From assembly GCA_947179485.1 (NCBI GenBank), contig OX359249.1:46575415-46639414 (forward strand): a stretch of 64,000 nt of DNA, in the 5' to 3' direction. Below, one piece after another: positions 1-58,500 of this stretch. Each line of letters begins with the position of its first letter. Position 1 is the stretch's first letter. The DNA is from Allacma fusca. Taxonomy: Eukaryota > Arthropoda > Collembola > Symphypleona > Sminthuridae. The translations under genes and the position numbers were made by a program. The notes beneath the pieces were generated by a model. The model was not told the origin of the DNA. It saw only the letters and a program-made list of their open reading frames with translations, and made no database searches.

Positions 1-3000
1 GAGACAAACTGAAGACGTGGCCTTCCTTTGACTGTCAGCTTAAGACTGTTATTACTGTATTATTAAAGTTCACGAAAAAATAAGTCCTAACTTCATAAAT
101 TGGTTCACTTTCCGCACTTATGTAAATATCCCCTCCTATACTCCACTACAGATTAACTTGAAACACTCGACTGAGCGAAGGATCGCAGCCCGTACAATGT
201 AACTACATACTGAGGAAGCTCAGCCAGAAATTCACTACTCATCATATCACAACAACATTACAAAGGACTATATCCCCTGTATACAAGTCAATGTATGTAC
301 ACACAGGCTGTATATTGTATATTCAGTCTGCACTATTGTACATACCTCCTTAGTACGTACCCTGGAATCTGGAAGTGATCACAAATCACAAGCACTAAAC
401 CAGTGCAGGCCACGTTTATTTTTTCGAGAACAGCTACCTTGCTTATTTATATGTTTTCAACAAAATAGAAAAATCAAAAAAAAAAAAGTTGCTTACATGA
501 ATAAGAATGAGCTACAACCCATACTCAGTAATTAAAATTTCAACCAATTATGTTAAAAGTATGATTCTGGTTATATGGTTATTATTATGGTTCTATTAAA
601 TATCTAACGATGACTTCAAATTTAGCAAAAAATAACATCTAGGGTTTGAAATCAAATTCTTGAATGTACATTATCCTGGGCTATTGAAAATTACAAGTTT
701 GCTGAAACTTAAAATTGGCAAAATTTTATGACAAAACTGTCCCTTTTTTGCCAATGGTATAGTACTACTATACTATACTACTGTAGTCGTACTAGTTCTG
801 AGAAGTGACAGCGATCTATGGTAGTTGAGATCTGAAATTGAAAGTAGTACTTGTGAAGTACTAGTGTCAAAATGTATAATTAATTATGAACAATTATCAT
901 CAAATTGTTAATATGGATTTAAGACAGAATTTTCTAAAGGTGATAAAAAAATTAGCCAATTATTTCGATTCGAACCAGTTACACTTTGTCACGGGAGGGG
1001 GAAAACGCGTGTTCGTTTATCAGCTAAATATGAGTAGTAATTAATGTTTTTGAACTCATTTTATGAAATGTCATGTTGGAACATTACTGGTTGTAAAATA
1101 TTTTCGCTCCAGCTTTACCGCATTGTGTATTGACAGATCCACTGGACACGAATTGCTTAAGCATGGGGCTAAACGAGGCGATTTCATTGATTGCTGTTTA
1201 TATTTGACAAATATTTTAAAATTAAAAATTGGTTTCAGTACACACAAAAATAGGTTTTTAGGGGCGCTACTTTTAGAATCACATAGCCTGAATTTGGTTG
1301 AGAAAAATCGTGAAAATTCAAAATATTTAAATGGATTTTCACATGGTAGTTCTCCATATACTGTAGGTTTGTACACTATAGTTTTCCTGGGAAGACTCGT
1401 AAATTTTTGAAATTCCTTATTTGTCCTATCTTATTTATACCTCAGAAGTACTGTAACTTTAAACAAAAATCATTATTACATGAGAATTCACGATTTTTAT
1501 GAGAGATACAAGCTGACTGGCAAGCAGCGAAGACTGATTTTCAGGACCATATTTTATACGTGTATAATTTATGAAGATTTCGTAGACCAGTCTTGTCATT
1601 GTGAGGCATATTAGATTAAACTTGTAGGAAATTAACTTATAAATTAACATAACGGTGTTGAATGATTGGGATTATTGAGTATTCTGAATTTCTACAGACA
1701 TTTTAAGACTAGATTATGAGACCTGACAAACTTGGGTCTGCCATGAGGAAGTTAAGAACTTGCACACACTGTCAAACCCGAGCCTTTATCTTTTTTTTGT
1801 ATGAACGTAATGTACTCGAGTCACATTTGAACGGTCACATGTGTATACGTAGAGAAGAGAGAACAAGATAGAGGTTTTGGTACTCGGAGGATTTTGAATC
1901 ATCGTCGACAGCTTCTACTGCCTTGCGCGAACCACTAATTGGACCATTGAGGGGGTACTAAATCTAATTGTGAGCATAATAAAGTACTTCTACAGCACAA
2001 GTACATTTGTACGGCCACTTACGTAAGTACTTACGTATGTACATGGAATGTGGGAGTGCAAAACCGTACACAACATATTGTTCAAAAATACTTTTCCAAT
2101 GTTTCGAAAGTTGTCTTCAAGATGAACATAACATGTATCATTATTACTCAAAGTACCCTTAGTCGCTAAAGGAATTTTGCGTCCTAGTTCTAGCAGTAAT
2201 TTAATTTTAAAGTTCTACGAATGACTTTTCTGTGTTCGAATAATTACATGGAATTTACCAAAAATGTAAAAGTGGTCAAATTGGAGGCTCCATATGTACT
2301 CCAGTACTTTAAGCGACGCTGCCAAAATGAACGGAGAAACTCAAGTCATTGTCTTTATTATTCGAAAATCGATTTTTAAAAAGAGCCCATTGTCAGAGCC
2401 AGAGGTCACAATTAGTTGAATTAATTTACGAAGGCACAAAAGACTACTTTTTATTCTTGCCTTGGATTTTGGTACTTTTATAAAAGTGTAGTCACTCACA
2501 AGTGGTTAGTAGTTACATACAAAAGTATTTAATTATGCGTATTTACCTGTCACGAGTTGATTGTACTTTGCACATGACACTTGTTGCGCCAATGGCGGAT
2601 TGAGTTTTAGAACGGGTTTAATTATAAAATCCGAAGAAATCTCATCTTACCCTTTATTGTTTGCCTGCAATGAGGTGTGTATGCGTGGGGTAGTCTTAAT
2701 GTTTAGTATCTCGATGTTTTATTTTTTTTCCCTAGAGGATTCCAATATGAACTGTATTCACTGTATATATGCTCACCTAAAAATTTGAGTAATCGCACGC
2801 TTGAGCTGGGAATTGTTCAGTGATGAATTATTTAATTATTCAGACACGACACAGGTAACGGGAAAGGAGAGTTTTTGATAGTTGAATGGTCTAATAATTA
2901 TCTTGAATAGTTAATATACATATATGTTATTATTATCATCTCACCGAGAACTTGTGTTGACGCAGTTCGAATTGGGAATCAGTAAGCCCTGTGGCTTAAC

Positions 3001-4645
3001 CTTGGGGAAACAGAATGTTGCGTTTGTATTTGACGAAATGTGTATTTACACTTTTCCTCACACTTTTATCTATTCGTCTGCTGTAGTAATGGGTGATTTA
3101 AAATTTTTAGATAGAATTTCCCTAATGGGGGAAGAAGAAGCCGTGTGTAGATTTATATTATTACGGAAGTTAGATGAGACACTACTTCCCCACTTCTATT
3201 CCTTTTGTTGACAAGGTCTTCTTCCAAAGCCAGCAAAGTAAGCACAAAGAGGAGCAGGTTATGGGATACGAAAGTTAATTTTTTCCTGCAATGATATGAG
3301 CATGGATTTTTTTTGTCTCCTTTACATATGTACAGTAGTGGATGGAATGGTGTGGAGAGATTTGTAGTTACGTAAGAATGCAGAAGAATATGGACATTTT
3401 ATAATATCACATGAAGTCTATACTGTGCCAATAATCACCAGATGTGAGATCAGCTTTTTTATTACTCGAAAAGAATGCAAAAATCCAGTGATCGAAGGCA
3501 ATCACATCATGGATGGTATTACAAGGTAGACCTCAAAGTTGTTTAACACCGTGGTTGACTCGCAAGTTTACATAACTATCATAGTGCAGATACTCGTCGG
3601 GCGTGGTCTGAGCCAACTGCAAGGAATTTCTGTCACAGAATAATTAGCTTTCATTATGTAGAAACGGATTTTTAATGGAAGGTTACAAATTTTCGTCAAT
3701 GGATCATGTACATTGTGATGTGCCATAGAAATAATAATACGGATATCTGGGGCTGGGATTTGAATTAAATATATAATTTACACTGACGAGGATAATGAAA
3801 GACGATAATTTATCGTTTCAATGGGAACAATCAATAATTACATTCCAGCGAAACCCGAAATTCTGATACAAGTGAACATTCTATTCAATTATTAACGACC
3901 ATAATATTATTATTTCTGGTAAGGAAAAGTAAAAAGTTTGGTCTTTATTTTTTTGTTTCACTAAAACTTAAAAACTTATTTCTTATTTTAAAACCTTTTT
4001 ATCAGAGTGAAATCAATGCTATGTTTTACGCACTATTAATAATAATAATGATTATTAAATTATTAATTTGTAATGAAGTATTAGTAGGTAATGAGAGGTT
4101 AGTAAGTGTACTTATACTTATTAGTTTACTTTTTTTTAATATTCCATGTTTCCAGTTGCCCCTGCTCTATTATAAGTAAATACTTGAATATTGGGGACTC
4201 CGCAACCTAAAAGACTCCTAGTATGCTACTATCCGTAACGCCAAAAAGGAGTCCTTAACCCTAATGCATAAAGTTACCCTTATATACATACGATATATGT
4301 ATCTCCCACTATCCGTCACCTTAACAATATCTTCCAATTGAAACGGGGAAAATAAGATGACTGACACACTGGGGTCAGCCGAATTTTATAGTTTCATATT
4401 GTGTTTACATTATGTATATTACTGGGAGAGAAAGGTTGAGGCCGTAAACGATAAATAATTTGATGGAAATAAAGGAGGAGACTGTTACGATCTGTAGAAT
4501 GTTCCTTTACTTCAAACCACTTCTCAAGATCAAAATCAGATATTGTTTCTATCTGAGGAAGTTGTTTAAGAAAGTACAATCTAAAACGTATTTCCGTAAA
4601 GAAATACAGGACAATAGTAAGATGACTGGAAAATTTGCAAATGAA
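1..4645. other. Intergenic, no recognised gene
   Basis: No exon of a known protein family was recognised on either strand. The longest open frames (for example 1063-1410 plus and 2924-3211 plus) have low-complexity composition and resemble no family known to me. The stretch is AT-rich with short homopolymer runs. The 3' UTR of the minus-strand dipeptidase should lie in its right-hand part; a TTTATT on the plus strand at 3944-3949 would read as a minus-strand AATAAA, but nothing confirms that it is used. Confidence 0.5.
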
Positions 4646-7600
4646 TCAACTACATCTGACTTCTTCCTTTGCTTCCTCCAGCGGCTCAGTGATCTGACCC
4701 ACTTCGTACAAATAGGCTGCCATTACTTTTGTCTGACATATACAAGGAAATATAAATTTGTGGTAATGGATACCGTGGTATCTTTGAGAAAATGTCAGTT
4801 TGGTAAGAACAATCAACCCGACTTACCCCTTCGATATAATTACGGATATCAATCTTTTCATTCTGTGAATGAGCACCATCATCACTTGCACCCATGGGCA
4901 AAAGCAGGACGTTCTTTTTGGTTGTTTCCTATAAAGCATCATTACTGTTAAATTGTATCCGAGAACCCCTGACCCTTAATGATAAATATGGAGGAGGATT
5001 TCAAGGAATTGAAATGAATTGGTTAAGGAAGGGTATTTAAGGACAGGAAGAAACCTGAAGGAGAAGGACTTGATTCATGTAACCTCCTTCCCGAATCATG
5101 TCTGGGAATGTATGAAAAACATATCCTACAGCCGTACGCGCTGCTTTGTAACTGGGATGGAAAGGGTTTGTGGTCCAGGCAGGAACTCCATCGTCGGCCA
5201 AATATATCTGATTAATAGCAAAAATACGAATTGGTTAACTTTATACCTGCAGGGTCAATGTCACCAGAATGGAGATAACTTCACAGGTCATGAATGGCAC
5301 CTCATTTACAGTACACATGTTGTGTCGCTTTACTAAATTCTTTATAATTTGGGTGATTTGGCATTGGCTTAATGCTTAATGGTTGTATACATTATTATTA
5401 TTAGATTGACTTCCAGTTTGAGCTGATGGGCAAGCCAGAATTATTAATTTTTACAGCTATTAATTCTTTTAATGTTTAAAATAAATATACGTAGCTTCAG
5501 ACATTCTGCAACAGTGTCCGTAAACTCAAATACCTATACTTGGAAGATGAAGGTAACAAAAAATGTAATCTTACCTTCATACTGTTCGGTGATTTGCGAG
5601 TCTCCCATTTTTCCTTAATGTACGCCATGACGACCTTCTCCACCTGATCTGGGGTCTGGTTTGGGACCAACCGTATCGAAAACTTCCCAATAACTTTTCT
5701 AGGAATCACAGTCTTGGCTCCAGGATCACTGAAGCAGCCTTGAATACCGTGAATGGAGAGGGCCGGGTACCGCCAACGGTGCATTAATGTCTTCGCCTGT
5801 ATGAATTGAAACTTTTATAAATAATCTGAACCTTGCCAATTAAAACGAAAAGCATGAAAACTTGACAACATCATCAAATATAAATTGTAAATTCTTTTCC
5901 TAACTTACTTTGCTCTGAGGGAAACGTAATTGACAAACACCAATTTCACGACGAAAATCATCTAAACTGAATTCAATGGCATCATACAGTTCCTGCTCGT
6001 CTGACGTTTCTTCCGGGACGTCATCCATAATTCCAGGAACTAGAATGTTTCCATCCTGATCAGTTAGTTGATCCAGCAACCAAATCAAATCGGCCATAGG
6101 TTCATGACTGAAATAAAAAAAAGTTTTAGAATTATGGAAAGGGCGATGTATAGTACAGCATCAAAATTCAAAATACCCATATATTATGACATAGTTAACA
6201 ATCTTACACAGCTCCCCCAAAAACACCACTGTGTAAATCCTTGATTCCTCCTTCGACTTCCAAGAAAAAATAACACAGTCCACGAAGACCGTACGTAAGA
6301 CAAGGTTTATTTTTACCCAACCAGTAATTATCGGAGATACAGACCAGGTCAACGTTCTAAAATCATTTTGGAGCATAGCTTTGATTTGATGGACAAGACA
6401 CTAAAAATGTTCAGTATAATATCTAATATCTAGTCTTATGTCATTGTTCGTCAACAAACTTACCTTCAAGAATTTATCTTTCTGGGCTTTCAAAAGATCG
6501 TCCAAACCTTCTGATCCAGATTCTTCCATTGCTTCCAGTACAAACTGTAATGGGGCATTTTGTATTCTGATCATACTTTCTACCGATATAACCCTTCATT
6601 TGAATCGTATAAATATGCTTTAAAATATTATTTAAACCTTAATGTTCACTGGAAGATCTAATTTCATTGCTTGGTAGCATTCAATAGCATGAAGCCAACC
6701 CAACACTGGACCTTTATCATCTGTGGCACCTCGTCCAAAAAGTTGACCGTGACATTCACTGAGCAGAAATGGATCTGAGTCCCATCCATCTTCCTGTATA
6801 AAAATTTTCAATCAAAGAATGGTTCTGATAAACTTAGTTTATGGTAAGTTTCACACTAACTTTTCGAGCGGGTTGAACATCAAGATGGCCGTAAATAAGC
6901 AATGTCTTTTTCCTATTGTCGAATCCAAGGGAGGCAAAGATCACTGGAGGTAAAGCCAAAACCGTTCCATCTTCAAATGTCTTAAACAATGAACAGAGCA
7001 GAAAGAAGTTAACATAAGCTTCGTAAAACGTTTATTGGAATTACTCTATGGTGGGTTGGGTAAACCAACTTTGGCCAGGTGTATTTTGTATTTATATTAT
7101 ACGCATAATTTTGGTAAAGTACACTTCTGTGTGATCTCACGTAGCGATTTTAGTGAAAGCATAAAGAGGTTAAACGTTAAATATTACAATACATTTGCAT
7201 GAGTACATCATTATTTACCTGATCACCGATTTTCCGGAGTTCGACTTCAAATCCCAATTCACGAAGTTTAGTACCAGCCCAAGTAACCATTCGAACAACT
7301 TCGGCTCGAGCTTCTGGCCATGCTGAAATTGAGCGAATGCCGACAGCCTCACGAAGAGCAGAAATGTACCTGTCCTTGTTTATGTCAATCAGTCTGAAAA
7401 AGATAATCATCTCGTTCATATGAAATGTTTTATATACCAGCACGAAAATCTCAATTTAGCACTATTGTTGCATGATCCTCCGAAGAAAACAATGCTTCCA
7501 GTTGCCCCAACTATCATATTAGTATTACAAAGAGCAATTCCCCTTGAAATATTTCTGTCGAACACTTGAGGCCAGGAGACAATACTGTAAGTGTAACCGT

Positions 7601-7946: not shown

Positions 7947-10900
7947 AATGGGTATCAGTACTAAATTTGGAAGTAAAAACGGTTCAAATTGGAATGAGTT
8001 TTATTATGTAGGTTTTTTGATTACAGCTATAGATTGGGTTTGGAAATAGGATGCTTTAAAGTGAATATTATACGCAAAAAGTTCAGTTGAAAAGTTTAAA
8101 TGTGAGCAAATAAAGCACGTCTTATTGTAATGAAAGCTTTGAAGAAACTAATCTACAGTTGTAAGAATGACAGAAAAGTCATGTAAATAGTATTATAAAT
8201 ACTAGTGACCGAACGCATAATGTATGCTACATATTTATACAAAATAATATATAGCTCTACTCCAGTAGTGAGTGTTTAAATGTAGTTGTGAAAAACTATT
8301 ATTTTAGTAAGGATATTTTGGTAAACGGATTTTCTTTTTTTGAAAATTATTCTGGACGAAAAAAAAAACAGTTTCCTATCCTTTTCCCAACCTTCAACAA
8401 AGGATTTTTACATTTCTTCGTAACCCTTGACCTGATTTCAATTATCAAAGGCTTTGTAGCGTTTGAAGATCAATATACAATTACATAAATATATTCAGCC
8501 CTTAAGTCCGGGTATAGTGAGAGATATCCTTCATTTTAAACATACTTTTTGATCTCGTAGTTACGTGGTTACGATTTACAATCCATTGCAAATATTATTT
8601 AAGGGTTTCCACAAGATGGATTTTGATAAAATTTATTAAATAATTTGAAACTGACAATGAAAATTTTGAGATTGTGCACTACAATCGAATGTGCTCTGAA
8701 ATAAGGAGTAATATGTATGTATAATAATAAACTACTCACTTTACTGACTATTCTTTCTAAATAGTGGTCTAATTTTAGATCAATTAAAATGCTTTAAAAT
8801 ACATTCCACATACTCAAGCCATTCACAAAGGTGGATGGATCTGGGGATGCAATGATTGGAAAATCATGAAAACACGGTATTTATCAAGTTATCAATATCA
8901 TATTTGGGCCGGTTTTACGTATACGGCTGTAAAATTGCTTTTAAATAAAATTAAATGCTCGTTTAAATTTCTAATCTGTTTAGGTTGACAGCACCCTGTG
9001 ACAGAAGCCAACTTCTTCGTTCATTAATGACTGCAGACATTAAATATTTTTCTGATCATTATCCATTCAAGTTAAGTTTATTCAGGAATTTCCCATCTGT
9101 ATTATACTAATACGTGCTGCGAAATTTTGCTCGATTTATACACAAATCGACAACAATTGTATAGGAACTGCCAGCGAAGCCAGTTGTAAAACCTACTTTT
9201 AGTAAAAATGAACTCATCGTATTTATTTGAATTAATATTAGCATAAACGTTGGTCAAAATCGGATCAGGTGTTTTTTAAATTACATTGTGAGGTATACTC
9301 CCTTTGCTACGCTAAGTACAATTCTTACATGATCATAAAATATTGTATATAAAAAGATGCAATTTATTGTTATGTCGCTCGCCTTTAATGGTACGAGTGG
9401 CCGTAACTATTTTCAATCTTCCATGTTAGTTTCAATATGTTCATGACAGTGACTCGTTCTTGCTAAAGTCAAGTATCCCTGGTAGATTATTTTATGATCA
9501 ATGAATTTTTCAATGAATTGATGACATGAAATTTTCACTAAAAGCAATACAATTTTCACTAAAACCGAAACAATTTATATGTGACTATGACTCCCCCCAC
9601 CCCCAAGTAAGTAACCCTGCATTTCTGCTAATTACAAAAGAGCGCTAGTAGTTACAAAAATTTAAATACTTACCCTTAACATTTTATTATTTATTTTTAC
9701 ATTACAGTAAATTAAGAAAATATATTCGGAAAATAAATACACTGGGATCTCGATGCTCTTTGTTTATGAATGTCGAGCGTACTCATTCAGATCTTTAGTT
9801 GTAAGATGTAGCGGCACGCGCTGAACTTTATTGTGTTCTGGGCACTGGAGAGTGAAAGTAAATCACGAGAAGTTTTATAAAAGCTACTGACAAACCTTGA
9901 CATATTTCCTAAGATTTTAGTTCTTAAACAGGAGCAACTGGATAATCCGAAGTGCTTGGTTTGATCTTGCCATATGTCAGCAATAATGTACTAAGAATAG
10001 CATATTAGGTGAAGCTGAAAGGTTTTTTTGCAATAAAATTTATGTGATACTTACATGAACTAAAATAAAATTATAATAACAACTTCTCCAGTCTAAATTG
10101 TACGACAACAGTTAGAGGGCAAATCGAAAAACTAGCTCATTTGGAAAAAATTATTTTGGCATGTTAATGACTTTCCTTTCAAATGTATTGACACGATCCT
10201 CCTTGTAAACCTTCGAAAGTTGCCAGAAATAATAAAAAAATATAGTGACGCCGACCAGGCGAAGAAAGCGTTTACTGTTAAAACTATGAGCATATTACTA
10301 ATAAATTTTCAACATATTTTTAATACAATTTCTAATCGCTGACTAGAAATTCAATTAAAATTGACTGGCATAGAAAGTACTAGAAATCTATTAAATATGT
10401 ATTCTAAATTAAGCTATTTAACTTTGAACTTTTATAAAAAGCTTTATTATTATTAATACGACTAGATTTATATTTATATGCTCTCAATTTTAATTAACTC
10501 CCACAAATGACCCCACTTCTCCACGTGACCTTCTAATAATTTTCACAAGTTTCAGGAAAGTCACTGACGTCCCTGATGCTCCCAGTCCCTGATGGAAAAT
10601 ATAACTCATTTCAATAATCTACCCTTAATGCCTCCATGCGACTCAACAATTCAATTGTTGAGTGCTTAAACTCAATGTTCATACTTTTTAAGGCCTCAAT
10701 CATGTAATTTGAACTGAGGTTTAAAATGATCATACTGACGAATAATTTCAGCAATTTAATACAAAATTATTATAATTTCATTGAAACAGAAAGTGTCATA
10801 TAAAAACTTTCATTGTTCAAGTTAGCCTGAACACCTGAAGCCTGAACATGAGCCTCAGGAATATCATATCATACACATATCTCCTATGCAAATACAAGAT

Positions 10901-19408: not shown

Positions 19409-21410
19409 GGCATTAATACACCAAGGGACTTCTGTTCTTCCGTTCACTCATCCAGTTTTAGAACATAGTTTAAAATGCGGGAGCAACCTAGGCGTATGGA
19501 GCGAATGGTTCCTGTGCAGTATGAGTACCGACCACATCGACCCCGAGGGGTTAATTTTATTAGCCCATGTCTAAAATATACCATGTTCTTTTTTAACTTC
19601 ATATTTTGGGTACGTCACTGTAAACAGTTACGAATTAATATTCAAACGTTAATATTACAAAACAAAGATGTTTAATTTGTGATTGTAGTATATCTTGGGT
19701 AGCATGCTGAAGAAAAGAGTTCATTCATTTATATTTTGTATTTCAGTTGGTCGGTGGAGCATTAATCGGGATCGGATTGTACGCACTCGTGGACCAGTTT
19801 CAATCAGGCGAGGGACTCAGAGTGAATGAAGTGGCTGACGTTCTTTTTAATGTTGGTCTTATTATTGCCATAATTGGCGCAGTGATTTTTTTCGTAAGTT
19901 TTTTCGGGTGTATAGGCGCACTTCGGGAAAATTGTGTACTTTTAAAGGCGGTAAGAACATCCTCTCGATATTTCTTTCATTAATAGTTGGTCAGCAAATG
20001 TTCGTATTTCTGATTTTGATACTTCATTCTCTACATATGCTCATTTTATTGGTTCCAGTACTCTGTGGCTCTGCTTATATTTTTCTTACTCGAGCTAGCA
20101 GTTGCCACTCTATGTTTTGTGTACCCAAATCGTGTGGAGGGAATTATATCGAATTATCTAACTGACAATGTAATTCAGAAATACAGAGAAGATCCAGATC
20201 TTCAGAACTTAATAGACTTCGTTCAGCAAGAAGTAAGTTTTATAAATTCATAAATAGATCTTGACTTCACAGTCTTTTTCCCAGTAGTATTTCCTGTACA
20301 TGATATTGACATAACCTTGTTAATTGAGGAGTTGTGAATATACTATGTGGATTTTATTTTTTCAGTTTCATTGCTGTGGGCTCAGCTCTAGAAGTTACGA
20401 AGACTGGTCCAAAAATGAATACTTTAATTGCACTAGTCCTGAACTGAATCAGAGCGTAGAGAGATGTGGCGTGCCTTATTCCTGTTGTAAAAATGCCACT
20501 GATATGTCCGTAAGTTCCGAAATTAATTGTTTTATAATTACTAATGTTAAATTGTTTACAGGGTTTGATTTTATACAAAATGCCAGTAACAAAAACGGAT
20601 GTACGGATATGCTTTGTTAGTATGGTCCAACAGGCAGTAGAGATATTTGAAAAACATTTTCATAAAAATGTTTTACTTTAATTCGTTTGTAGCTATGATA
20701 AATACTTTTTGTTATCAAATTTTCCTTGTTTACATTGCTGTGCAACTATTTTTATACAGCAGAGAGAGGAGAATATATGTGGAGCCTAACATTAAGTCAT
20801 TTTAATATTTTTACTCTATTTTCAGAGTGGACTTATTAATATCATGTGCGGTTATGGTGTTCAAGGGGATGTAAGTTGAATTAATTCAGTAATCATTCAA
20901 TATTAAATGAAAATTTACTACACTTGATTTTAGGTAAATGCAAAAAAAATTTTTCGTTCTTAGATGTACATATATGCAAAAGTAAGTAGTTTATAATGTT
21001 CTTTTCAGGGGAAACCTTCGAAGGAATTACTTCCACAGAGTAAGGGGTCTGCTTCACTTCATAATGATGCCAATCCAAAGGAAAAAGTGTGGACGCAGGG
21101 TTGTATAGATGCATTAAAATCGTGGATAAATCGGAATCTCTATATAGTTGCAAGTTCCACTCTCGGCATAGCGCTCATGCAGGTAAATATTCAATGCCGT
21201 TGAAACTAAAAGATGCCTGCATATTCCGCATGGCCAAAACTTACGTCTCTATGAAGCTCATTAGGGTACATGTTGGTTCAGGTTGAATTAAATTAGTTCA
21301 ATAGCTAAGCACAAGAAAACTCACATAGCATGTATATTTTTTTCTAGCTATTTGTGATGTACTTAGCCAAATCTCTGGAGGGTCAGATCGAACTGCAAAA
21401 GTCAACATGA
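19409..21410 (+). CDS. TspanC8-type tetraspanin, TSPAN33-like
   Basis: A four-pass membrane protein of the tetraspanin family; members of the TspanC8 group bind ADAM10 and control its exit from the ER and its targeting. Coding exons are 19475-19609, 19747-19950, 20059-20232, 20366-20509, 20826-20870, 21009-21182 and 21348-21410, all GT-AG and in phase, giving 312 codons. The first listed exon probably starts at 19409 after TTCCAG, so 19409-19474 is 5' UTR and the first UTR exon lies upstream. The ATG at 19475 gives an N-terminal tail of about 31 residues. Membrane segments lie at about 32-60, 75-100, 114-136 and 278-300. The large loop has eight cysteines (174, 175, 193, 205, 211, 212, 227, 266) with FHCCG and YSCC motifs, and the DWSKNEYFNC segment resembles TSPAN33. 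The loop between Cys227 and Cys266 is lengthened by a polar insert (GKPSKELLPQSKGSASLHND). TSPAN5/14 subtype is possible but less likely. Confidence 0.93.
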
Positions 21411-24210: not shown

Positions 24211-24242
24211 ATCACGGACACGGACACGGAGACGGAGACTAT

Positions 24243-24576
24243 CGTCGCTGAAGAGGCAAAATGGACTAAGTGCAATTTCGACTAGAAGCAAAATGGTCTA
24301 CATGCCTTTTTCCTTAAAGGCAAAATGGAATAGTTGCAAGCTTTCCTGAAAGCAAAATGGACTACATGCAGTTTTCACTAAAAGCAAAATGGTCTACATG
24401 CGTGTATACTTTCATAATGTATGTAGACCATTTTGCTTTTAGACGAAATTGTACTTATTCCATTTTGCTTTTAAAACTTGATGCATCTATTCCATTTTGC
24501 ATTTAGTAAAACTGCATGTAGACCATTTTGATTTTAATCGAAATTGCACTTAGTCCATTTTGCCTCTTCAGCGACG
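24243..24576. mobile_element. 334 bp foldback element with tandem units in each arm
   Basis: The two ends are inverted copies beginning CGTCGCTGAAGAGGCAAAAT, and the flanks carry a 4-bp duplication CTAT (24239-24242 and 24577-24580). Each arm (about 24243-24402 and 24418-24576) is itself five tandem units of about 31-32 bp built on CAAAATGGNNTANNTGC, so the element folds into one long imperfect hairpin with a small loop near 24403-24417. There is no coding capacity. The organisation resembles foldback-type DNA transposons, whose arms carry internal tandem repeats. The superfamily cannot be assigned from a 4-bp duplication alone. Confidence 0.85.
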
Positions 24577-24862
24577 CTATCCACTCTTTCAACTTAGAAG
24601 AGAGGATAAGCTAGAGTTAAAAATAAAATATAAATGTAACTACAACTTGACTACTCGCTACAGTTTATTTTTAGTTTTGCTAAATTCAGCTGTCAATACA
24701 CTTTGCTATTTTGCCAATACACACCGACAATATATGTACGTACATATGTATGTGATTGTTAGATGAAGTTTATTATTGAGTGGTACACATACATACATAT
24801 GCATGTTTGGGTGGTAACGATTTATGCATTACAATGTAACTGTATAGGTAGTATAACATGAG

Positions 24863-30037: not shown

Positions 30038-33000
30038 GTAAATTTCCTCTTGACAAAATATTTTGAAGGATTATTTCGGTTCTTTGTATGCATATAGTTC
30101 AGCACTGTACAATAAGCTAGATTTTCATCACACCTTATTCCTGACTAGTGTCACTGCAGAGGGATTCGTTCACGTATTTATAGGTAATAATAAAATTGGC
30201 ATCCGCATCCGCTCAATATATAAAATGCGGATGACGCGCCCGTCCGTCCGTCCGTGTGTCCTAATTTTATTCTCTGATTTTCTGAAGAATGCTACCACAT
30301 TCTATAAATTATTGTTCGAACGTTCGACAATTATTTGTAGCGTTGATTCCCGATGTACTTTATTCAGTGATTATTGTACCTTTTGTGGTTAATTTATTGT
30401 ATCTTTTGTATTCCCAAATTATTTGGTCTTTTAACTGCAATTCAGCCAAATAATTACTGAACGTTCTAATATTTACAAATACATAATAAGTAAGCAACCT
30501 TTTGGTCATCCGACATGGTCGCATATTTTACAAACTACATGCTTCACTTCTGAAAACAAAATCGGAAAAAATGTTTAAGAAACTTTATAAAAATGCCATT
30601 GGTTTGAAAAAGAAAACATCTGTTGTTACGGAGTTCCTTTTGCATTGTCACCTCACAGTCTACTTTAAGCCATTAAATCTGTACGTACTTATGTATGTGC
30701 GTACATTATGTATGCATTAAGAGATGGAGCAGAGGATTTCTTACCTTTTTGTAATTCCAGCTCAGGCTGTACACCCTTCCTTGTTACAGAAATCGGCCTT
30801 ACTGGCGCCTTGTGGTGATTTTTTAATCTTTGGATTCAGAGCTCTTCATGATTGAAAACCAGGGTTCATGCTGCTTCCAAAGATATAAAAAGTCAAGAGA
30901 AAACAACATACGTACTTCGTTCATTCTGATTAAATCCCTAGGCACGAGGTTCCTATATCTAGTAAAAGTGTATATTACACATGTGTATATGTACATGTGT
31001 ATATGTACATGTGTACACCTTGCAAACATCCTAAGGTGTACAAGGCGTTCGGGAACCTTTGATCCCTGTGCTCTACAAGATCTAGGCATGCTACGCAATT
31101 GCAGATGGTATATTTTTGTACGTAATTTTATTGCGGAACCTGCAAAATAATTCAAAGCGATCGGTCAACAATTTGAGAAATTATAGATTGAAAACAAAAC
31201 AAACCTAAAAAACACTTCAGTAATTTATTAGACCTCCTTCAGCATTCCGAACTTGGTCAAATCATTGCGGATATGACCACAGGATCTTCTCGAATCCACA
31301 AGTGACATTATCTATGTCTTCCAGCAAATTCATTTTTGTTCCAGACAAAGGTGTCCGCCTATCCTACTTATAGGCCTATTTGTAGGTTATTTATAGGGTG
31401 AAAGGATTTTATTAAATAGGCTTGAAGGCAAAATAGGGTGCAAGAATATACACTTAAAACCTAGCCTACAAAATAGGTAGGCTCATCCGTCTTAGAAATA
31501 TAGGCACATAAGTAGGCTATTGAAACACGTCAATTTCATTTAATGGCATATATGGAACTGGCAAAATGAAAATCAAGGAATAATCCGCACCTGGTACTTG
31601 CAGACTGTATATTTCATGGTGCGACTCAAGCATGAAAAGTTGGTGCTACACTGCCAGTCAATTGAAGTTGGACGCCCAATGTTTTTTTGAATAACTGCTA
31701 ATAACTTTTTACACAGTTACGCGAATCTTGTCAAAAATTCAGGTTTTAATGTCGAACATATGGGGATTAGATACTGGTACGTAATAACGTACACAGTACA
31801 TCTCATACACTGTAAAAAATTTGAAACAAAATTGTTTTAAAAAATCGGCGTCATTTGAAGTTGGACGGTTGCATTTAACTAATTTTTTACCTCAATTCCC
31901 ACTTAACTACTGTACTTTAATACCGCGTAGGCCTACCTCTGACTGCTAGGACAGCTGCTATCCTCCGGGGCATGGTCCCCACTAGCTTCCGGGTAACTTC
32001 GGGGGAATCTTTCCCCGTATATCGGTGACCAGATTTTTCGACGTGGGTTTCCCAGTAATGTCGAAATTTTACAACTCCGTCGCAATAAAATCTCAAAGTT
32101 GTTCAATTTGGATCATGTCTGGGCTTTGTGCTGGCCATTTCATCACTAAAAATTTGTTTTTCCGGAAGAAAGCTGATGTTGGCTTAGATGTGTGTTTAGG
32201 ATCATTACCATTCTGAAATACAAAATGGATACCCAGTCCAAGTTTTCGTGCGCCAGGCTTGATATTAGGATCCAATATTCCTTGGTAACATTCTGAAATC
32301 ATTATTTCGTGAACAAATTCCAAGTTACCTGCCCAGGAACCCCCATACAGACCCAAACCAAAACACCCCACGTCCTATCTTCAGCGTTGGTGGGCAGTGC
32401 CAGCGTTTGAGTACCTCGCCAGACTTTTTGGAACTCTGTTTTGTGGACTAAAATAAACTAAATAACTCGACTATAACTAACATAAACTCGACCACTGAAA
32501 TGAAAATTTGCGTTTGAACAGTTTAAATTTCAAACAGGATTTACTACGAGATATGTTGTCAGCCAGCTATAGATTTCCGTTACCATGATTCTTTTGGACC
32601 AACGTTGTAAAATTTGGTCAATATTCCGGCGCTAACGGAGGCGAGATCGACACTGTTCTGCTCTTAGGGACTTTGGCCAAGGTGACTTAGCTCAAACTAT
32701 TTTATTCCGATTATATTGAGCTGAGACAGTGCTTTTAATTTATTAGAGCAGAATGCCTTAAATAGTCTGTCAGTAACGAAAAGCATACAAGATGTAGGAA
32801 TGGTGTAGAATTCGTTGAGCTGATTTGTCAATGAAATGCAGGCTAATAAGTAGGCTTAGTGATCCCCATATATCTGTAGGAAGAGTGTAGGATAGGCTGA
32901 CCTATTCAGCGGTTAAAATGTAGGCTTATATGCAGGGTTGCACAGTTGAAAATGCCATGGCATTTTCGGCATTATGCCTGCCCAAAATGCCCTGGCATTT

Positions 33001-45600: not shown

Positions 45601-46671
45601 AGTTCGTTGTTCAGGTTACCAATTACTATTACTACTCATTGGTCATGACATGGGAGAAAAGTTGTTGTGAAGCGTGCATGCTGAATGTCGGATTGAGGTA
45701 GATATAAGGTTCAGCTGTTTTGGGAAAATTGAGCCTTGTGGTGGGTTCTACGTCCCATAATGTACCTACCTACTCCTTCTTATGACTATGTGAGCCGCAT
45801 CAGGAATATCTGGTGATGTTCCGACTTTGCTTTGCCCATCCGTGCATTGCTCGAGTACAGAGTAGTTTCCTTCAATGATAACGGAGATTTCATTATTCGA
45901 CAGATGTCATGGATGGAGTATTCGTAGGTTTTATATATATTTATAATTATTTATACCTTGATGTAGGCGTATGCCTAGAAGGGTTAGAAATTTGATTCTT
46001 CTATCTAGTTGCATGTTCATATACATAGAGAGAAAAATTGACATTGGGATTGTGTTCAGAGATTTTTGCTCGCATAAAATAAATCTTCTTCAAGGAGTCT
46101 CTTCCAGTGAGAGTGTAGAATGTATGAACAAGATATGCAGGAAGATCTTGCCATTGAAGGGAATACACTACTATAAATTGTAAGGAAGTTTATTATAAGG
46201 TGTAGGCTTGAATACATAGAGATGATGCAGACGTAGATAGATATACACAAATGACATAAATTATGGTAAAGTAGTAAAATTCGTAGATTTACAAAGAAAC
46301 TACAGTGTGCATGTATGTGGTTAATGTACAGTGCATGAACAAAATACATGGAGCAATAATGATGATGTTGGCACACTCAAGTGTACCAAGGGTAAGATGT
46401 TTCATATTAAGGCAAATATGCAGAATCTGTAGTTTCAGTGTGTGTACGAGGGAGTCAAGAAAGAACATGCTCAAAGCTGAACTTGGAGAGCACATTAAAT
46501 CACCCTTTAGTCCTCCAGTCATGAAGATAAATTATCTCCAGTCATTTGACAGTTAAGGGAAAGAATCCGCAGTGTCAGGAATTTCTAAGAACATTCATAA
46601 TTCCCTCCTGTGAACATGACATGAAACATATACAGTAAGAACAAAATTGATCACACCTCTTAAGCCATATA
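42641..46671. other. DPCD 3' flank and intergenic
   Basis: DPCD may end after AATAAA at 43057-43062. The only other exon-like segment is at 42856-42994 (listed separately). No other gene, RNA or bounded repeat is recognised. Confidence 0.4.
42856..42994 (+). other. Exon-like open segment of unknown identity
   Basis: A 139-nt open stretch, more GC-rich than its surroundings, is bounded by an acceptor (GTGTGCAG) and a donor (CTATGG|GTAAAA). The frame reads KAGSVIAVLPHGIWIRYS, then a Pro/Trp-rich stretch, and ends LDESGSLW. The protein is not recognised. No partner exon was found on either side, and the segment falls between the DPCD stop and the first AATAAA. It could be chance sequence in the DPCD 3' UTR, an alternative exon, or one exon of an unseen gene. 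Confidence 0.25.
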
Positions 46672-47219
46672 CACTTAATTATAGATAAAATCCTTAATTC
46701 CAATCATAGAAATTTAGAGTTGATGCAAATCGTAGGTAATAAAATTACTCATCGATGGGTATTTTCATTACCGCAAATTGATTTAACCCGCGATTCGAAG
46801 CGTCGGCCAGTATATGGCAGTAGGAGATAGAATGAGGGCCACTCTCCTGAGATAAAAGTCCCCCTCCGATGCAGATATTCTACCGAAGGGTGGTGATTGT
46901 TTAACAAAAATAACAAAATATACTACCTGTCAAAATAAGAAGGATCTTCAAAAATATAATGATAGCAGGACACCCCATAGGCTCCCAGACCATGCCTAGG
47001 CGCAAATATAAAGCATAGAGAGTATGAAAAAATATTCAGAGAGCATATGGGGTATCATATTCTCAATATATTTTTGAAGATTGCAACCACTTCGCATTGC
47101 GCGTTAAAGCAATTTGCGGTAATGAACATACCCATCGATGGAGAATTACATTACCTACAATTTACACCTACTCTCAACTTTTTATGATTGAAATTAGGGT
47201 TTTTATCTATTATTAAGTG
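46672..47219. mobile_element. Long-TIR MITE, 548 bp
   Basis: Inverted ends of about 140 bp begin CACTTAATTATAG at the left and, inverted, CACTTAATAATAG at the right. They stay clearly alignable through ATCGATGGGTA and TTCATTACCGCAAATTG. TA flanks both ends (46670-46671 and 47220-47221), fitting a TA target site. The middle is about 260 bp without coding capacity. A Tc1-mariner-type origin is likely from the TA but not proven. Confidence 0.8.
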
Positions 47220-50200
47220 TAGATGGCTCGAGGGGTGGGATAAATTGTTGTGTATACTGTATTTGATGTTTTAATTGCAAACACATTTGGTAATGTAGGC
47301 CAGAGATGTTATTTCTGGCTCTCTGGATTCACTAACTTTAGAAACCTTTGGCCAGAACCTACTCCACAGGTAAGCCCGGCTGTCAGGACTGGTAAAATAA
47401 TTTATTGTTGGAACTAAGCCCTCCAGTTCCAGTTACTTCGTCACACACACACGCACAAACATGCACGTTGAGTAGCAGACACTACATTTTCATTAAAGCA
47501 AAAGCAACAGTACTGGCAGAGTTCAGCTAACTGATTAAGAGTTTCCTAGGTGATAGACAAGAGCAACCGACTCTCTACTTCAAAGCCACAATTATTATAA
47601 ATTTCAGAAGTGCTACTTTCTCAAATGAATCAAGCTCGTACTCCAGAGTACACTCATAAAAACACTCATAATTACATTTGGACCCTGACGCTACAGTGGG
47701 AAACGTTAAAGAAATTTATTTGGCTTTCAGTTCCTGTATGTATTTACAAATCAAAAAGTTTGTATGAAAATAATTGCCTTCGCTATCGAAACAGTGAAAG
47801 TGTTCTGCGTTAAAAATTATTTTGCTGTATGAGGACGTTCACGAAATCTCCTTCTACTGTATATAGAGTCCCTAGAAATATTTTCTCCCCTAACCTAGTG
47901 TAACCTCATGGAATATATCATCCCCTCATATTTGTGGCAATATTATTCCAGTTTAAAAAAAAAGAAAGTTTCTCTTGGATACCTGAGCGAAATTGCGGTA
48001 CAAAGTTTTCCAAATTAAAATGACAACTTATTTGCTGAGGCTCCTGTTTAGAAAATTGTATGGAATTTCAACAAGCTATCAATTAGGTTTCAATATGGAG
48101 AACAACCCAAAATGTGAAGTAGGGTTGATATGGCAAACTGAAGTACTTTAAGTAGGCTTTTGCAGCAATGTTCATGTATTTCAGGAGCCTGTGCAAATAT
48201 TTATAGAGCGGATAGAAACAGGATTTGAAGTAGACGGAACTTGATAAATTCTTGGAAATATATGGAAGATACTTTCATTTTTGCTTCTCACCTTCGACCG
48301 ATGAACCCAGAAACAAGTATCTGTCTGGCCAGGCTAATACAATAAATTTTATAAAATATGAAAAAATATTTGTAATTTTATCACAAGGTTATATATGGAA
48401 GATGTTTCGACACGGCTATGCTTCTATTGCTACGTTCCACTTTTGAGTAATTATTAGTATTTAATTTAATGTCTCTCTCTTTCTTTGGGCTTCACTGTAC
48501 AATTTCTCAAGAGCTTTACGTTCAGCTTATTCGCTCTGAGCCCGAAATCCCACTGATTTTGTCCTGATCTTTCTATTAGCTTTTCCTTACCTGATGACAT
48601 TTCACAAACCCAGTCAAAACCTTATTCTAATTAGCGATAATAACCACTATCTTTATTTCTTATGAAAATATCATAACCTATAATCATAAACCTTGAACAT
48701 AGTCCTTCAGGACCATTTCTTACATGTAAAATACATTATTTAAATGTATATAAGATTCGTTCCGTGACACTACTACTTTCTTTCGAGGACTGTGCCAAAT
48801 TTCGGAGTATTTACTTCACGCTGGATCGTCTTGAAGAATAGTAGCATAGTCGGTAAGGATGTGTTTCTTTGATAATGTTTCTTCTCACAGACGTTAAATT
48901 TATCGTTGGCTATTTAACCCGTAGAATGTATCCGAAACGGAAAGCATTATTCAATTCTCCAGTGAAAGTATCTATTTGAGGACGGAACTTCAGAATTGGT
49001 CTGAGGGACAAGGGAAAGCTGTTCCAAACAAGCAAAATTCAAAGATTATGAACGTATTTTTGAAGAGGGATCCAAGAGGAAGGATGGTTGAGAAAGTATA
49101 GAGCAAACTCACAGTGGAACCTTACAGAAGCACCTCAGAGTTAGTCAGCCAAGTAAAGACATTCGGAGGGCGTATATCATCTGGGATAAATGGTGTGAAG
49201 AATTGTTTCGTTATTGGAAAACTTACTGAGCAACTTGTGGGGCATGGTACTGATAGTTGTGATAGATATGATATGATTCAGGCTCCGACCTGTACGGCCC
49301 GCAATCGATTTACTTCAAATTCTTTTATTAGAGGTCTGAACTGTATCAGCACTTCAGATGATGGCCTTATGGCATTCCGTATCTACGTGCGTACTACATA
49401 TGTATCTACATTAGCAGGTGGTCGATGTTTCCTCAAGTGTGTCTGCACAGTTTGCACTACGTACACAAAGGCAAAATCTCAATGCACAACTCCGAAAGCT
49501 AATTTGACCATTTTAAGCTGATGACAGAGACATATTGGCAAAAATAAAAGTCTGAAAGTCCATATAATCATCCCGAAGGAGTAATGGTGCTTAGGGTTTG
49601 CTGATTTGAAAATGCCCTGGAATTTTGGGCATCTCGCCCACTCAAAATTCCTCGGGAAATTAGGCCGATTTTCTGATGTTTGAATTCTATGTCGAGGGTG
49701 TTTCATATCAATTTTCTTCCCCTAGCCCACATAAGGGAGTAAATCATAAAATATTTGCTTCCCCAATTCGTAGTAACTTAATTTCCAGAATTTGAACATT
49801 ACAGAACCAATTCTGATGTACAAAAAACGCGTATGCAAATGATACAAGAAATTTGAAAGTACGATAGTGCCCAAAATTAAAAGACCCCAGTTGTTGGGAA
49901 ATTGGGAATGCTGGTAGATAGAAATTCTGAGCATTTTCAGTCGGGCGGGAAAATACACCCAAGGAAATTTTGGAAAGACAAACCCTATAATGGTGGTAAT
50001 ACAGAACTATTCCACATGGAACATTAACAAGAAATACTCCCACAGTTCAGCGATAAATTACTCACACGAAGGATCGTAACTTGCTGGCAACAATTCCATT
50101 CCTCCTAAAGCATTCCGATTGTAACAAGTGTATAAATATGAATCTTAATTTCTTTAGCATAAAGTTCTCCCTAACCAATATTAATGCTGTTCGATGTCGA

Positions 50201-53200: not shown

Positions 53201-55100
53201 ACAGATTTACATATCTACTTGTGTCTATATACATCTCAATGTACAGACTTACTATACTAAAGAAATAATCTGACAAAGGTATGTCAAAAACCCATCTGAA
53301 TCTTCTTCTTGGAGCCATACAATTCAATCAGGATTTTGCCCTTACTTTTTCTTTTTGAAATCGTATTTTGTACAAAGTCCATTTTGTAACTATCGAAGTC
53401 AAAGATTACAATTTTTATGTAGGGGTACTCCCGGGAGCAGCTCTCTACTTGTGCAAATATTTTATGTGGGTACATTTATTCAGATGCAAAAGAAGAATAG
53501 GAAGAAAACAGAGCACACAATGGCATATCTAAAATGAGTGACTGCAACTGAATGAGCTTTTTGTAGATGCGTATGTAGTTTTTTGTTTGGGAGATTCGAT
53601 TGGCTCCGAGCAGTTCTTGGGAACAGTCGTACTTTTGAGGAACTACAACTGTAAAGAAAATAGCAGGGGAAATGCGCATTGTTGAAGAATTCCTCTCGCC
53701 GGAAGGCCTTTTTTTCTTAACAGTGTCTGCAATTTATTAGCTTAGCTTGTTTACCAAGACCATTGCTGTTTGTTACTTCCAGGTTGTTTCTCAACGTTGA
53801 AATGCTCCGGTGAATGGCTTTATACAAAAAGTGTATCAGTATAGAAGTCATGCTGGTTGCACTTGCAGGCCCAAGGAAAGAGATCTATACTCCAGAACGT
53901 GTATACAACGTGAGGGGGCAAGTACGTAAACCTAGGTGTTAGCTCCAACTCCAAGTTCGGCGCACATCTCCCTGTAAGACACACTTGTGTGAGGACCACA
54001 AAATCAGAATCTTTATTCTTGCTCGTGTCTGACTTCGAGCTTGCACTTGGTATTATCGCCTCTTTGCAACTCTCCGGACTGCGGACGTGATTACGTTTCT
54101 AGACTCAGCAGAGTGGAAGCTGTATCAGCGTGTAATTATGGGTGCTTGGAGGGTCTGACAGAAACTAGAACTACTTTGGGATCTTCTCCGTTTCTTGTGC
54201 AAATAAAGATACAAATGTCATTGGATTCCTTTAAATTCTCTAATAAACATTCTTCTCCCTCGTTCCTTCTCCGCCTCTTGAAGCATGGGAAATTGATGCG
54301 TTAAATTAACGATCGCACATAAACATTCCTTGCAATTGGGGATTTTTTCTAAAATATTCATACGTAGGGGATGGATAGTAAAGTCATTACTGAAAATTTT
54401 GTTCAGTCATGAACAAATTACGGGTTGTAATTTCAAAAACAAAATGACATGAATTGAAATACACATTATTCATTGTCCGGAAGAGTAACACAGTAATGAT
54501 TGCATAAATTTTAAACACGTACACAGACTTCAAAACGAAGTTCCTGAGTTCCAGTTTGATTTACTTTGCTTTCAGATTGCTCCACGTGATTATATGATAC
54601 GAGCATCACTGCGTGCAGTATCCTTCAAAGCATGCACGTGTAATGTTGTACCATATGAAGCATTCAAACATGTAAATATCCGTCTATCACAAAGCTGGCT
54701 CATTTCAATGAAGTAGTGATTGATGACGAATATCACTTACATAATTATATGTGTAATTATATAAGTATGTATATTTCTGATGTAAATGTTTGCAGCGATA
54801 CATAAAATTCAAATTATTCACATTTCAAAAACAAATATTGTTCATTAGCTCATCTATGTTGTCTGGTATCAGTCACGTTTTGTTTTGTTAAAAAATACTA
54901 TTAACTGTTACTGGAAATTAGCTATTTTAATTGAAGAAATTAAAAGGTAATTAAAACTAATGTCTGGAAACTGGAAATATATTGAACTAATTACGCAGCA
55001 ACAATTTATTATTCTTGATATATTTATACCTAAGTCTATACCCACACCATTCTTCCAGTAATTAAACAAAGGAAGATACGAAATTGATAGGATAATTTTA
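47220..55100. other. Intergenic, nothing recognised
   Basis: About 7.9 kb. Several open frames of 60-135 codons exist (the longest is 49114-49521 plus), but none resembles a known family and none shows convincing splice context. Weak hairpins near 54603-54645 and 54730-54765 precede the array that follows. Confidence 0.4.
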
Positions 55101-55598
55101 ATGTATGCCCTGTTGGACATAAATCCGCAACAGACATACATATGTACATGGATATGAAGTTTTTGATAAGCAGTGACTGCTGTGTCTACCCGTAAACACA
55201 GCAGCCCTTGCAGGCAAAACTAGGTAATTTTTATACAGAGAGACCCAACTGAAGTCGTGTGGACGTAAATCCACTAACTTCAGGTAAGCCTCCCGAGTAT
55301 TGTAAATATTGTGATAAACAGTAACTGCGTGTCTTCTTTATAGAAGACACAACAGCTAAATTTGATAATTCTATGATTTGAGTACAAGGAGACCTAACTG
55401 TAGTAATGACCATGGAAATTCACAAACTCCAGGTAGGCCTCCTAAACTAATGTAATTGGGATTTGGAGCATTTCCTTTATGGAAATGTCCCAAACCTCAA
55501 TATTAATCAATTTTTAGAACTTTACAGGAGCATTTATCTCCCATATTTTGTTACTCAAACTGGATCGTTTGTGAGATAACTCCAGATGTCTTACCTGT
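55101..55598. other. Array of seven alternating hairpins, period near 145 nt
   Basis: Two hairpin types alternate. Long imperfect ones are H1 55101-55141 (ATGTATG/CATACAT plus CTGTTG/CAACAG), H3 55249-55283 (CTGAAGT/ACTTCAG plus GTGGA/TCCAC), H5 55387-55443 (AGGAG/CTCCT, CCTA/TAGG, CTG/CAG) and H7 55524-55598 (ACAGG/CCTGT, GTTA/TAAC, CTC/GAG, AAAC/GTTT). Short tight ones are H2 55177-55204 (CTGCTGTGT/ACACAGCAG), H4 55329-55350 (GTGTCTTCT/AGAAGACAC) and H6 55462-55494 (TTTGG/CCAAA plus CATTTCC/GGAAATG). Start-to-start spacing is 148, 138 and 137 for the long type and 152 and 133 for the short. Units starting GATAAGCAGTGACTGC (55165) and GATAAACAGTAACTGC (55313) are clearly homologous. It is not a recognised RNA family; a tandemly duplicated structured RNA or a miRNA-like cluster are options. 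Confidence 0.6.
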
Positions 55599-58500
55599 AT
55601 AGAAATTAGTTGTCATTTTTTTCAGACACTATCTGTCAATTTGTGTACAGTTTCTCAAGCTTAATTTGCACGTTAATCTGAAGCAGATTCTGCTGGATTA
55701 ATGATTCTGCAGGATAAACTGGATTACGCTTCACTGAAAATTCTACCAAAATAGTTCCGCATAAAACAATAGTCTGCACTTAGAACTGAACACCCGTGTC
55801 ATAGTTGCGTATTACGTTAACCTTGCTTTGCTCCGGCTCACAACCATAGAACTATTTTGCTACATACTCTTGATTAACTCTGCCATTCGCCCCCCGAGGA
55901 GTACCAATTTGGCTCGACAAAATAATTAATTATTGTTGGTGGGATAATTATTAGGGAACTTTTAGATTATTAACAATTTTCAAAACTTTTAACATAATAC
56001 ATTAAGTAGGTACAGATTACAGATTTCTGTTTAATTATGTCACCTATTCTTCACTTCAAAGGTATAGAGCATTCCCAAAGGCTAAATAAAGGGGGTTACA
56101 AATGGTCTTTAGCGATCGGAATAGGGAAGAATTGGAACTGTCATTAAGACCTGAACGAAAAAACGAATAAAAGATCCAAGCTTTTGGGTTAGCATGGAGG
56201 TTTTTCATTGTCCCATCTTTCAATAATGTAAAGAGTGCATAATGTGCATACGTGCTGTCGCAACTTCCGCAGAGCACTCACTTAATAATTGGCACCAATG
56301 GAATAAGATGGATATGAGGAGGGGAGCCCAGAACGCCGAGTGTTAAATGTGTGTCAACTTTCCTAAATCCAGTTGGTAATGAGTGAGAAAAATGACTAGA
56401 GTAGAGGAAGAAAAAGAATCAATTGTATGAGCAAAAGAAAGAGCTGATGTGTCCTTTGGGATACATTGAAAAATTCCCCATGTATAAAATACTATGGAGA
56501 TTAAGGAAGAAAAAGGGAGTCTATATATGAACCTGACATGAGTTGTTTTTCAGCCTCTGATCATTTCACAGCCATGGAGTATTTGACTCTAAGATGAATG
56601 TTTAAGGCAGGCTCAAGTCTGGGTGTGTCACCTGTCACCCAATCACTTAATTTACTCCTGACTAGTTTGTTTATTCACTGAACATAGCACAAATTGGGAA
56701 TACGTGAGCGGATGCAATTTTGGTTGGAGAATATTAACCAATGCGAAGAAAGGGGAAGGACGAATTAGATAAACAAGAATTTTTAGTTTGGATTCGGCAT
56801 GTTTCTGCAATGCAGTCTGTAAACCAGCAGCCCATAGAAGGAGCGAAACAATTATTAGTTATTAAGGTACATAATATTCTCTTACAAGTAGAAAAATTAA
56901 AATTTATTGTAGTAACTTGAAATGTTTCCAAATATAATTTGTTTTTCACGTAGGAAATTATTTTATAAACGGGTCTTTTATCGCTCCTGGTTACTCTGCT
57001 ATATTGACTTGATTTTTCCCTTATGGACTTTTCAGAATCCGTAATAATTAAGCTACCCCAAGTAGCTGATGCCAAAACATATCCATAAATTCCGTCCTCC
57101 CACACCTACCTAGAAAATCTATTGGAGCTCTTTCAACTTCAGTTCAATCCAAAGATGAAATATTGGTTAAAACCAGGACTGCAAAGGTTCAAAGTGGAGG
57201 AAATCTCTCCAACACGAAAGTTCAAAGGGTGATGTTTAACCGGTTGTTACAGAACATGATGTCTTATAGAAGGAAGAAATTTGAGGTATGAGCGTTATTT
57301 GTGTAGCTAGTCATCTACAGATATAGTTATGTTGTCCCTATCAACCCCATACTCATTGAACCTGGATCGAAAATGATTATTATTTTGACCCGATACTTTT
57401 CCAGTACGTGTGATGTTACACAGTTTTGAAGAAAAGTTTCCAGCTACTACCCACTCCCCTGTCTATACCTAATGACCCGAGTGAGGAAAATGAAAGCTAA
57501 GTTTACTTATGAAGCATTACATGAGTTAACTTTACCGTCGTTGGAAGCTGGAGGAGCACCGCCTGACGTACTTATAATAGCACTACATACAAACTGTAGT
57601 TTTATTTGGGCTTCGGCGTACATTGCTCTTGCAACACGTTACTACCCCAACCCATTTATACAAGGCCGAGCAAGGCTGGAAGAAATGTACATGCTCTCTG
57701 TATGAAAACAAGAGGAGGAAAAATAAGGTTTATTTCCCCGGCTCTTATTCATCTTATGCTTTTATGAGCCTCTCAGTAATCTGGATAAGTTTTCGTCATC
57801 AACTGGAAAGCTCCCAGTTTTTTCTCTCTCCTTTCTTTTTTCCTCGTGTGTTTTTCTTTCAGTCAGCCCAACATTCTTAGTCATCAGGGAACAGGAGAGG
57901 GGATATACTGCGTGAAGGAAAGCACTAAACATTTTCCCATACATTTCCACTGAACTGACCCAATCTTCTGTTTATTTTCTAATCTTAAGGGATAGAGAAA
58001 GTTCGACTAGTTTCTCAGACTCTTAAACGATCTCTACGCAAGAGATTGAATGGTTTAAGCTAGGGGAAGCTACAAACCTCAAGAAACTGACCTGGGACTT
58101 CAAGTGGGGGTCTCTAACAGCATGACTACCCGATCCCACAATCGTATTAACTCATCCTTCTATAATATCAAAGCCACCCATTTTATGCCATGCATGCGTC
58201 CTTTTGTACCAGGTTTAGCTACAATCTCTCACAGTTGATGCTTCGTACATGAATCTGCAACTACACAAAACTCCAATAAGTCGACTTCAATACAAGTATT
58301 TTGAAGGAGATAGAACAATTGATACAATTACTCCAGCGCCAAATCAAGCTTTTAGTACAAAACGTTGCCTAAACTACTAGCTACTGTGTGTTGTGTGAGA
58401 TAAAAACTAACTTTCCAAGAGCTCCCTAAAATCTTGTCTTTCTAAAAGCCGGGGAACGCAGCTTTATAGAGAAAGGGAATACAGTCCGGCTGTAATTTGG

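Follow-up and report, generated by a model that had tools for sequence, protein, structure and literature searches.

What is the structured stretch of DNA at positions 55101 to 55598 of the window, the 64,000-nucleotide portion of the Allacma fusca genome that was analysed? An initial annotation described seven stem-loops there, alternating strictly between two types with a regular period, and suggested a microRNA cluster, a precursor of small RNAs or a structured non-coding RNA. We find instead that the array is the U3 of a retrotransposon long terminal repeat (LTR), in a family whose LTRs occur in pairs about 10 kb apart with pol between them. It is near certain that an old Ty3/Gypsy lineage left the feature in the window as a solo LTR, and we hold with high confidence the fuller reading that this lineage is diverged and that the hairpin array is the U3 promoter region of the LTR.

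The array stands out in the folding z-score scan that had been proposed as a check. Among 12,786 segments of 70 nt, covering all 64 kb on both strands, the lowest energy is found at 55231 on the minus strand (-33.8 kcal/mol, z -8.0), and segments with z below -4 and energy below -18 fall into four minus-strand groups (55151, 55221-55241, 55291-55321 and 55441-55451). Strand-neutral detection of inverted repeats identifies six within 55101-55513, here lettered A to F starting from the left: A (55101-55141), B (55170-55211, the GCAGTGAC type), C (55233-55300, the GAGACC..CAACTG type and the lowest-energy hairpin of the window), D (55322-55358, of B's type), E (55387-55443, of C's type) and F (55444-55513); an additional inverted repeat at 55663-55742 lies outside the array. 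Six of the seven stem-loops are therefore well formed and above chance, while the seventh, at about 55520-55595, is weak (-12.5 on the plus strand and -15.0 on the minus strand) and absent from both the energy scan and the inverted-repeat detection. The alternation and the periodicity are borne out: B and D start 152 nt apart and C and E 154 nt apart, a period of about 150 nt. The interval 55236-55295 folds far better on the minus strand than on the plus strand (-31.9 versus -17.4), and 55440-55510 folds about equally on the two (-23.1 and -22.6).

When 55101-55598 was searched against the same genome (393 Mb), seven places were found, the window included, the other six at 71-92% identity; the left flank (54200-55160) matched only itself, and the right flank (55590-56600) matched itself and one 92-base stretch. 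Searches with further copies revealed diverged copies on at least five chromosomes (C1, C5, C8, C9 and C10; C numbers denote chromosomes of this genome, and labels L011 to L064 denote extracted genomic copies or pieces). A pattern built on the C/E hairpin gave nine matches versus three for a backward control; one of the nine was a previously unseen copy on C1, L053, which as a query gave at least 47 matches when 40 of its 58 candidates were scored. These include seven same-strand pairs 7-11 kb apart (at C12:17.46, C10:26.84, C9:5.77, C1:19.81, C8:2.96, C10:13.54 and C1:24.18 Mb). With the copies ordered by the orientation of the array, defined as the better-folding strand, the first copy in six of the seven pairs reaches query base 581, into internal sequence, and the second stops at 529-538, as the ends of LTRs would; the exceptions are the same-strand pair of L053 and C1:24179473 and a same-strand triplet at C8 54.436-54.443 Mb with spacings of 2.7 and 4.5 kb. 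A MITE or fold-back transposon, also considered, was dropped once the same-strand pairs and pol appeared. Two equal-score LTR matches on C8, at 40229352-40229780 (minus) and 40233232-40233660 (plus), lie in opposite orientation 3.9 kb apart, perhaps as an inverted duplication.

In the sister families, elements of about 10 kb carry the same array in each of their two LTRs, and one of these elements is intact. It occupies C9:5761748-5772022, its two LTRs are identical at 745 of 745 bases with TG..CA ends, and it is flanked by the target-site duplication CTGA/CTGA. Its pol (in the L055 pieces) contains, in this order, RVT_1 (2.1e-23), RT_RNaseH (2.7e-29), Integrase_H2C2 (1.8e-17) and rve (1.4e-14), and this order of reverse transcriptase, RNase H and integrase assigns the element to Ty3/Gypsy. 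Read along the coding strand, the hairpins run from A to F; the better-folding strand is the opposite one. Two open frames 3' of pol (L054:1096-1863 and 2215-2625, plus strand; 255 and 136 aa) have no significant Pfam match; by eye, the first ends in a C-C-H-C-like pattern.

The copy in the window is an LTR of 835 bp at 55085-55919, on the plus strand as judged from the coding orientation of the family. It runs from TGATAGG to GGCTCGACA, with TG at 55085 and CA at 55919, and both termini have their homologues in the LTR ends of the intact element on C9. Its borders were lined up with the C9 ends by eye and are supported by BLAST: a match to L049 starts exactly at LTR base 1, and one to L014 stops precisely at base 835. 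Read from the sequence, a duplication of AAAT (55081-55084 and 55920-55923) flanks these ends, although its shortness (4 bp) and AT-richness make it a weak point. For the old copies L011-L014 no clean target-site duplication was found, and three automatic candidates were judged spurious. Since tblastn searches of the window with pol (three pieces and the C-terminus) and with both additional open frames gave no match to an internal region beside the LTR, this copy is best read as a solo LTR, which most simply arose, we suppose, when the two LTRs of a single insertion recombined. It is a decaying relic, no longer part of a coding element. Own-genome searches with the window and other copies, among the best candidates scored, gave no same-strand pair about 10 kb apart that would mark an intact element of the window's own U3 subtype, and hence the link to Ty3/Gypsy runs through the diverged sister families. 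The window matches L054 at 68% identity over 235 bases (E 2.5e-6), and its LTR matches L058 at 71.5% over 123 bases (E 5.6e-12); the similarity to the sister families is low but clear. Around an old LTR on C10, L012 contains a 1.2-kb direct repeat (2094-3284 and 8549-9736) with copies 80% identical.

Several other features were seen in the window: a 340-base stretch (24240-24579), in tandem units of about 32 bases, that shares about 82% identity with its reverse complement; an inverted pair at 46627-46800 and 47090-47265, which may be a MITE or fold-back element (82% identity in an alignment of 176 positions); and, by eye, a resemblance to a C-terminal fragment of a Tc1/mariner transposase (32096-32374, minus), exons resembling a CNDP2-type peptidase (5500-7455, minus) and exons resembling a tetraspanin (19711-20617, plus), the two kinds of exon marking the host as an animal.

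The array lies at the 5' end of the LTR, filling the first 400 or so bases of the C9 LTR and surrounding its TATA box, which sits in the loop of the last hairpin. The motif CCTATATAAGG / TATATAAG is present in the F loop of seven of nine sister-family extracts (C9, L053, L058, L059, L060, L061 and L064, and not L062 or L063); in the old copies this site reads TTTATGG in the window, with variants in L011, L013 and L047 out of six other old extracts. From the position of the array and the TATA box in the F loop we infer that the array, with repeats A to E, is U3 sequence that extends to the core promoter and surrounds it, that it has a promoter role, and that the U3/R border falls in the window such that the R-U5 part spans 55514-55919 (plus strand), of which the last 110 or so bases resemble some other copies. 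The U3 would then consist of five inverted repeats, of two types with one pair duplicated, upstream of a sixth with the TATA box in its loop.

Conservation along the LTR is uneven. In forced global alignments, C9 and L053 are identical at 41-47 of 50 positions per 50-nt block through 1-400 (82-94%), with one or two gaps in two of the blocks; identity falls to 28 of 50 in 401-450 and to 15-24 per block thereafter. The comparison of C9 with L059 is similar, bar one gapped block, and with L058 the drop is gentler. By eye, the extreme tip of U5 looks alike across the sister LTRs. In sum, the C9 LTR (L056:449-1193) has a U3 highly similar to those of L053 and L059 and an R-U5 that can hardly be aligned with theirs. 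For LTRs in general, PMC3601003 describes R and U5 as better conserved than U3, so that the usual pattern is reversed in C9 versus L053 or L059, where U3 is far better conserved than R-U5. Judged from the alignments, this suggests that U3 may be under stronger constraint here, or that U3 modules may have been exchanged between elements.

That the hairpin types arose by duplication and kept their structure in part while the sequence changed, as the initial annotation proposed, agrees with paired double changes and with slower change in the stems. Homologues of hairpin A were aligned in A3 (eight copies tried, seven used; L058 gave no match) and those of hairpin B in A4 (13 tried, ten used; L059, L060 and L062 gave no match). 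Both sets hold only copies in which both arms were found, the other extracts, including the decayed L011 and L014, lying outside, and so favour paired copies. For hairpin A, 92.4% of cells pair and four of 17 pairs have double changes; none of 500 shuffles reaches its seven double-changed cells and 12 reach its four pairs. For hairpin B the figures are 85.2% and five of 19 pairs, with none of 500 shuffles reaching 11 cells, 24 reaching five pairs and 89 the number of pair types; the kinship of the rows inflates all such numbers. (Alignment A1 was made without the fragments L015, L016 and L046, and A2 without D of L014 and L047.) Substitutions between C9 and its sisters are fewer in stems than in the rest of U3 in all five comparisons: 18/240 versus 29/162 with L053, 24/221 versus 22/158 with L059 (only a slight difference), 33/228 versus 51/160 with L058, 30/167 versus 35/119 with L061 and 16/140 versus 38/107 with L060, the stems having been delimited on C9 alone, a choice that tilts this result towards apparent conservation. 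Paired double changes are in clear excess in one of these single comparisons (L061, six versus a null mean of 1.23), and not with L053, L059, L058 or L060. In simulated decay from majority sequences, nine of 23 hairpins (L012_C, L013_C, L045_C, L012_E, L013_E, L047_E, L012_B, L013_B and L045_D) were equalled or surpassed in stability by no more than 6.1% of simulations, and seven of 23 passed at the 5% level; the other 14, including the window's W_B, W_C, W_D and W_E, did not reach this mark. The comparison of stems and non-stems with C9 is the better of these two tests. Some old copies have lost hairpins (E and D in L011, C and B in L014, and D in L012 and L013, D being poorly formed in L011, L012 and L013), as expected of relics.

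A rival explanation is a host microRNA cluster, or a structured non-coding RNA gene expanded by duplication, which the pre-miRNA-like folds, the tight clustering and the paired double changes would favour. But the array sits within the LTRs of a mobile element, several of its copies are broken, and Rfam scans of the window and the region give no family at gathering score; the 13 sub-threshold hits up to E 10 (best E 0.59) are all far below gathering scores and were treated as chance, and we consider such a gene very improbable. Stem length is not decisive here: the inverted repeats of the C9 LTR, with 15-27 Watson-Crick pairs each (n = 6), fall short of the roughly 33 bp of pri-miRNA stems, but C spans 33 aligned positions.

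Two further explanations accept the LTR and differ on what its palindromes are for, and we regard both as unlikely. By analogy with foamy viruses, whose LTRs offer a precedent for hairpin arrays, the element might put the array to use at the RNA level: an LTR transcript, either antisense or from the 3' end in sense orientation, would fold into hairpins that are processed into small RNAs or bound by protein. In line with such use, antisense G-U exceeds A-C by 80 to 37 cells when all inverted repeats found in 16 extracts are pooled (some of them outside the array) and by 49 to 23 cells in alignments A1, A3 and A4, and for 18 of 23 hairpins the antisense strand gives the better fold. However, with column pairs as the unit of counting, the bias is 26 to 17 (P = 0.22), so that the strand is not assignable; the better-folding strand is opposite to the coding strand; and matches with one mismatch to GWTCRANNC, the B-box consensus, are at chance level in L056 (8 found versus 8.5 expected). 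Alternatively, the palindromes may be unselected and kept perfect by reverse transcriptase, which would switch templates on hairpins and repeatedly rewrite one arm from the other. Intrastrand template switching is known to occur and would yield paired double changes without selection, but alone it predicts neither stems that change more slowly than the remainder of U3, nor the kept TATA loop in F, nor kept wobble pairs such as G-U at A1 columns 15-67 in seven of 11 rows.

Under the preferred reading of a U3 promoter region, it is likely, though not proven, that the palindromes are kept by selection in the active lineages. The inverted repeats would then serve the element's own expression or replication in cis; most likely they would drive the U3 promoter, either as binding sites in pairs or as palindromes that can be extruded. 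A bolder proposal is that of a promoter type not yet described: a module of about 400 bp with six structurally selected inverted repeats around a TATA box, which lineages would keep or exchange while R-U5 is replaced, and which would work through extruded DNA hairpins or antisense hairpin RNAs. We think this improbable and offer it as conjecture; titles and abstract openings in the partial literature searched contained no U3 palindrome array of this kind.

The result removes a false microRNA candidate and indicates that a structured LTR U3 can pass for a non-coding RNA array after its element decays to a solo LTR. If the stems are selected, the family would be a clean case for asking what role palindrome arrays play in LTR promoters, and one genome holds the material: an element whose LTRs are identical, alongside several subfamilies that show paired changes.

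Among known systems, the closest is Ty3/Gypsy (Metaviridae), with which the family shares TG..CA ends, a 4-bp target-site duplication, a TATA box in the LTR and, in the intact sister, paired identical LTRs and the order of reverse transcriptase, RNase H and integrase; it differs in that its U3 is an array of six inverted repeats. Foamy-virus LTRs encode microRNAs whose transcription is directed by Pol III, according to PMC7104284 and PMC7693620. The simian and bovine clusters resemble the present array in placing several hairpins within a retroelement LTR, but theirs are Pol III-directed microRNAs, whereas the window family has no excess of B-boxes. Retroviral U3 enhancers are direct repeats, duplicated units upstream of the TATA box; the array shares duplicated units in that position, but its units are long inverted repeats with paired changes rather than simple direct repeats.
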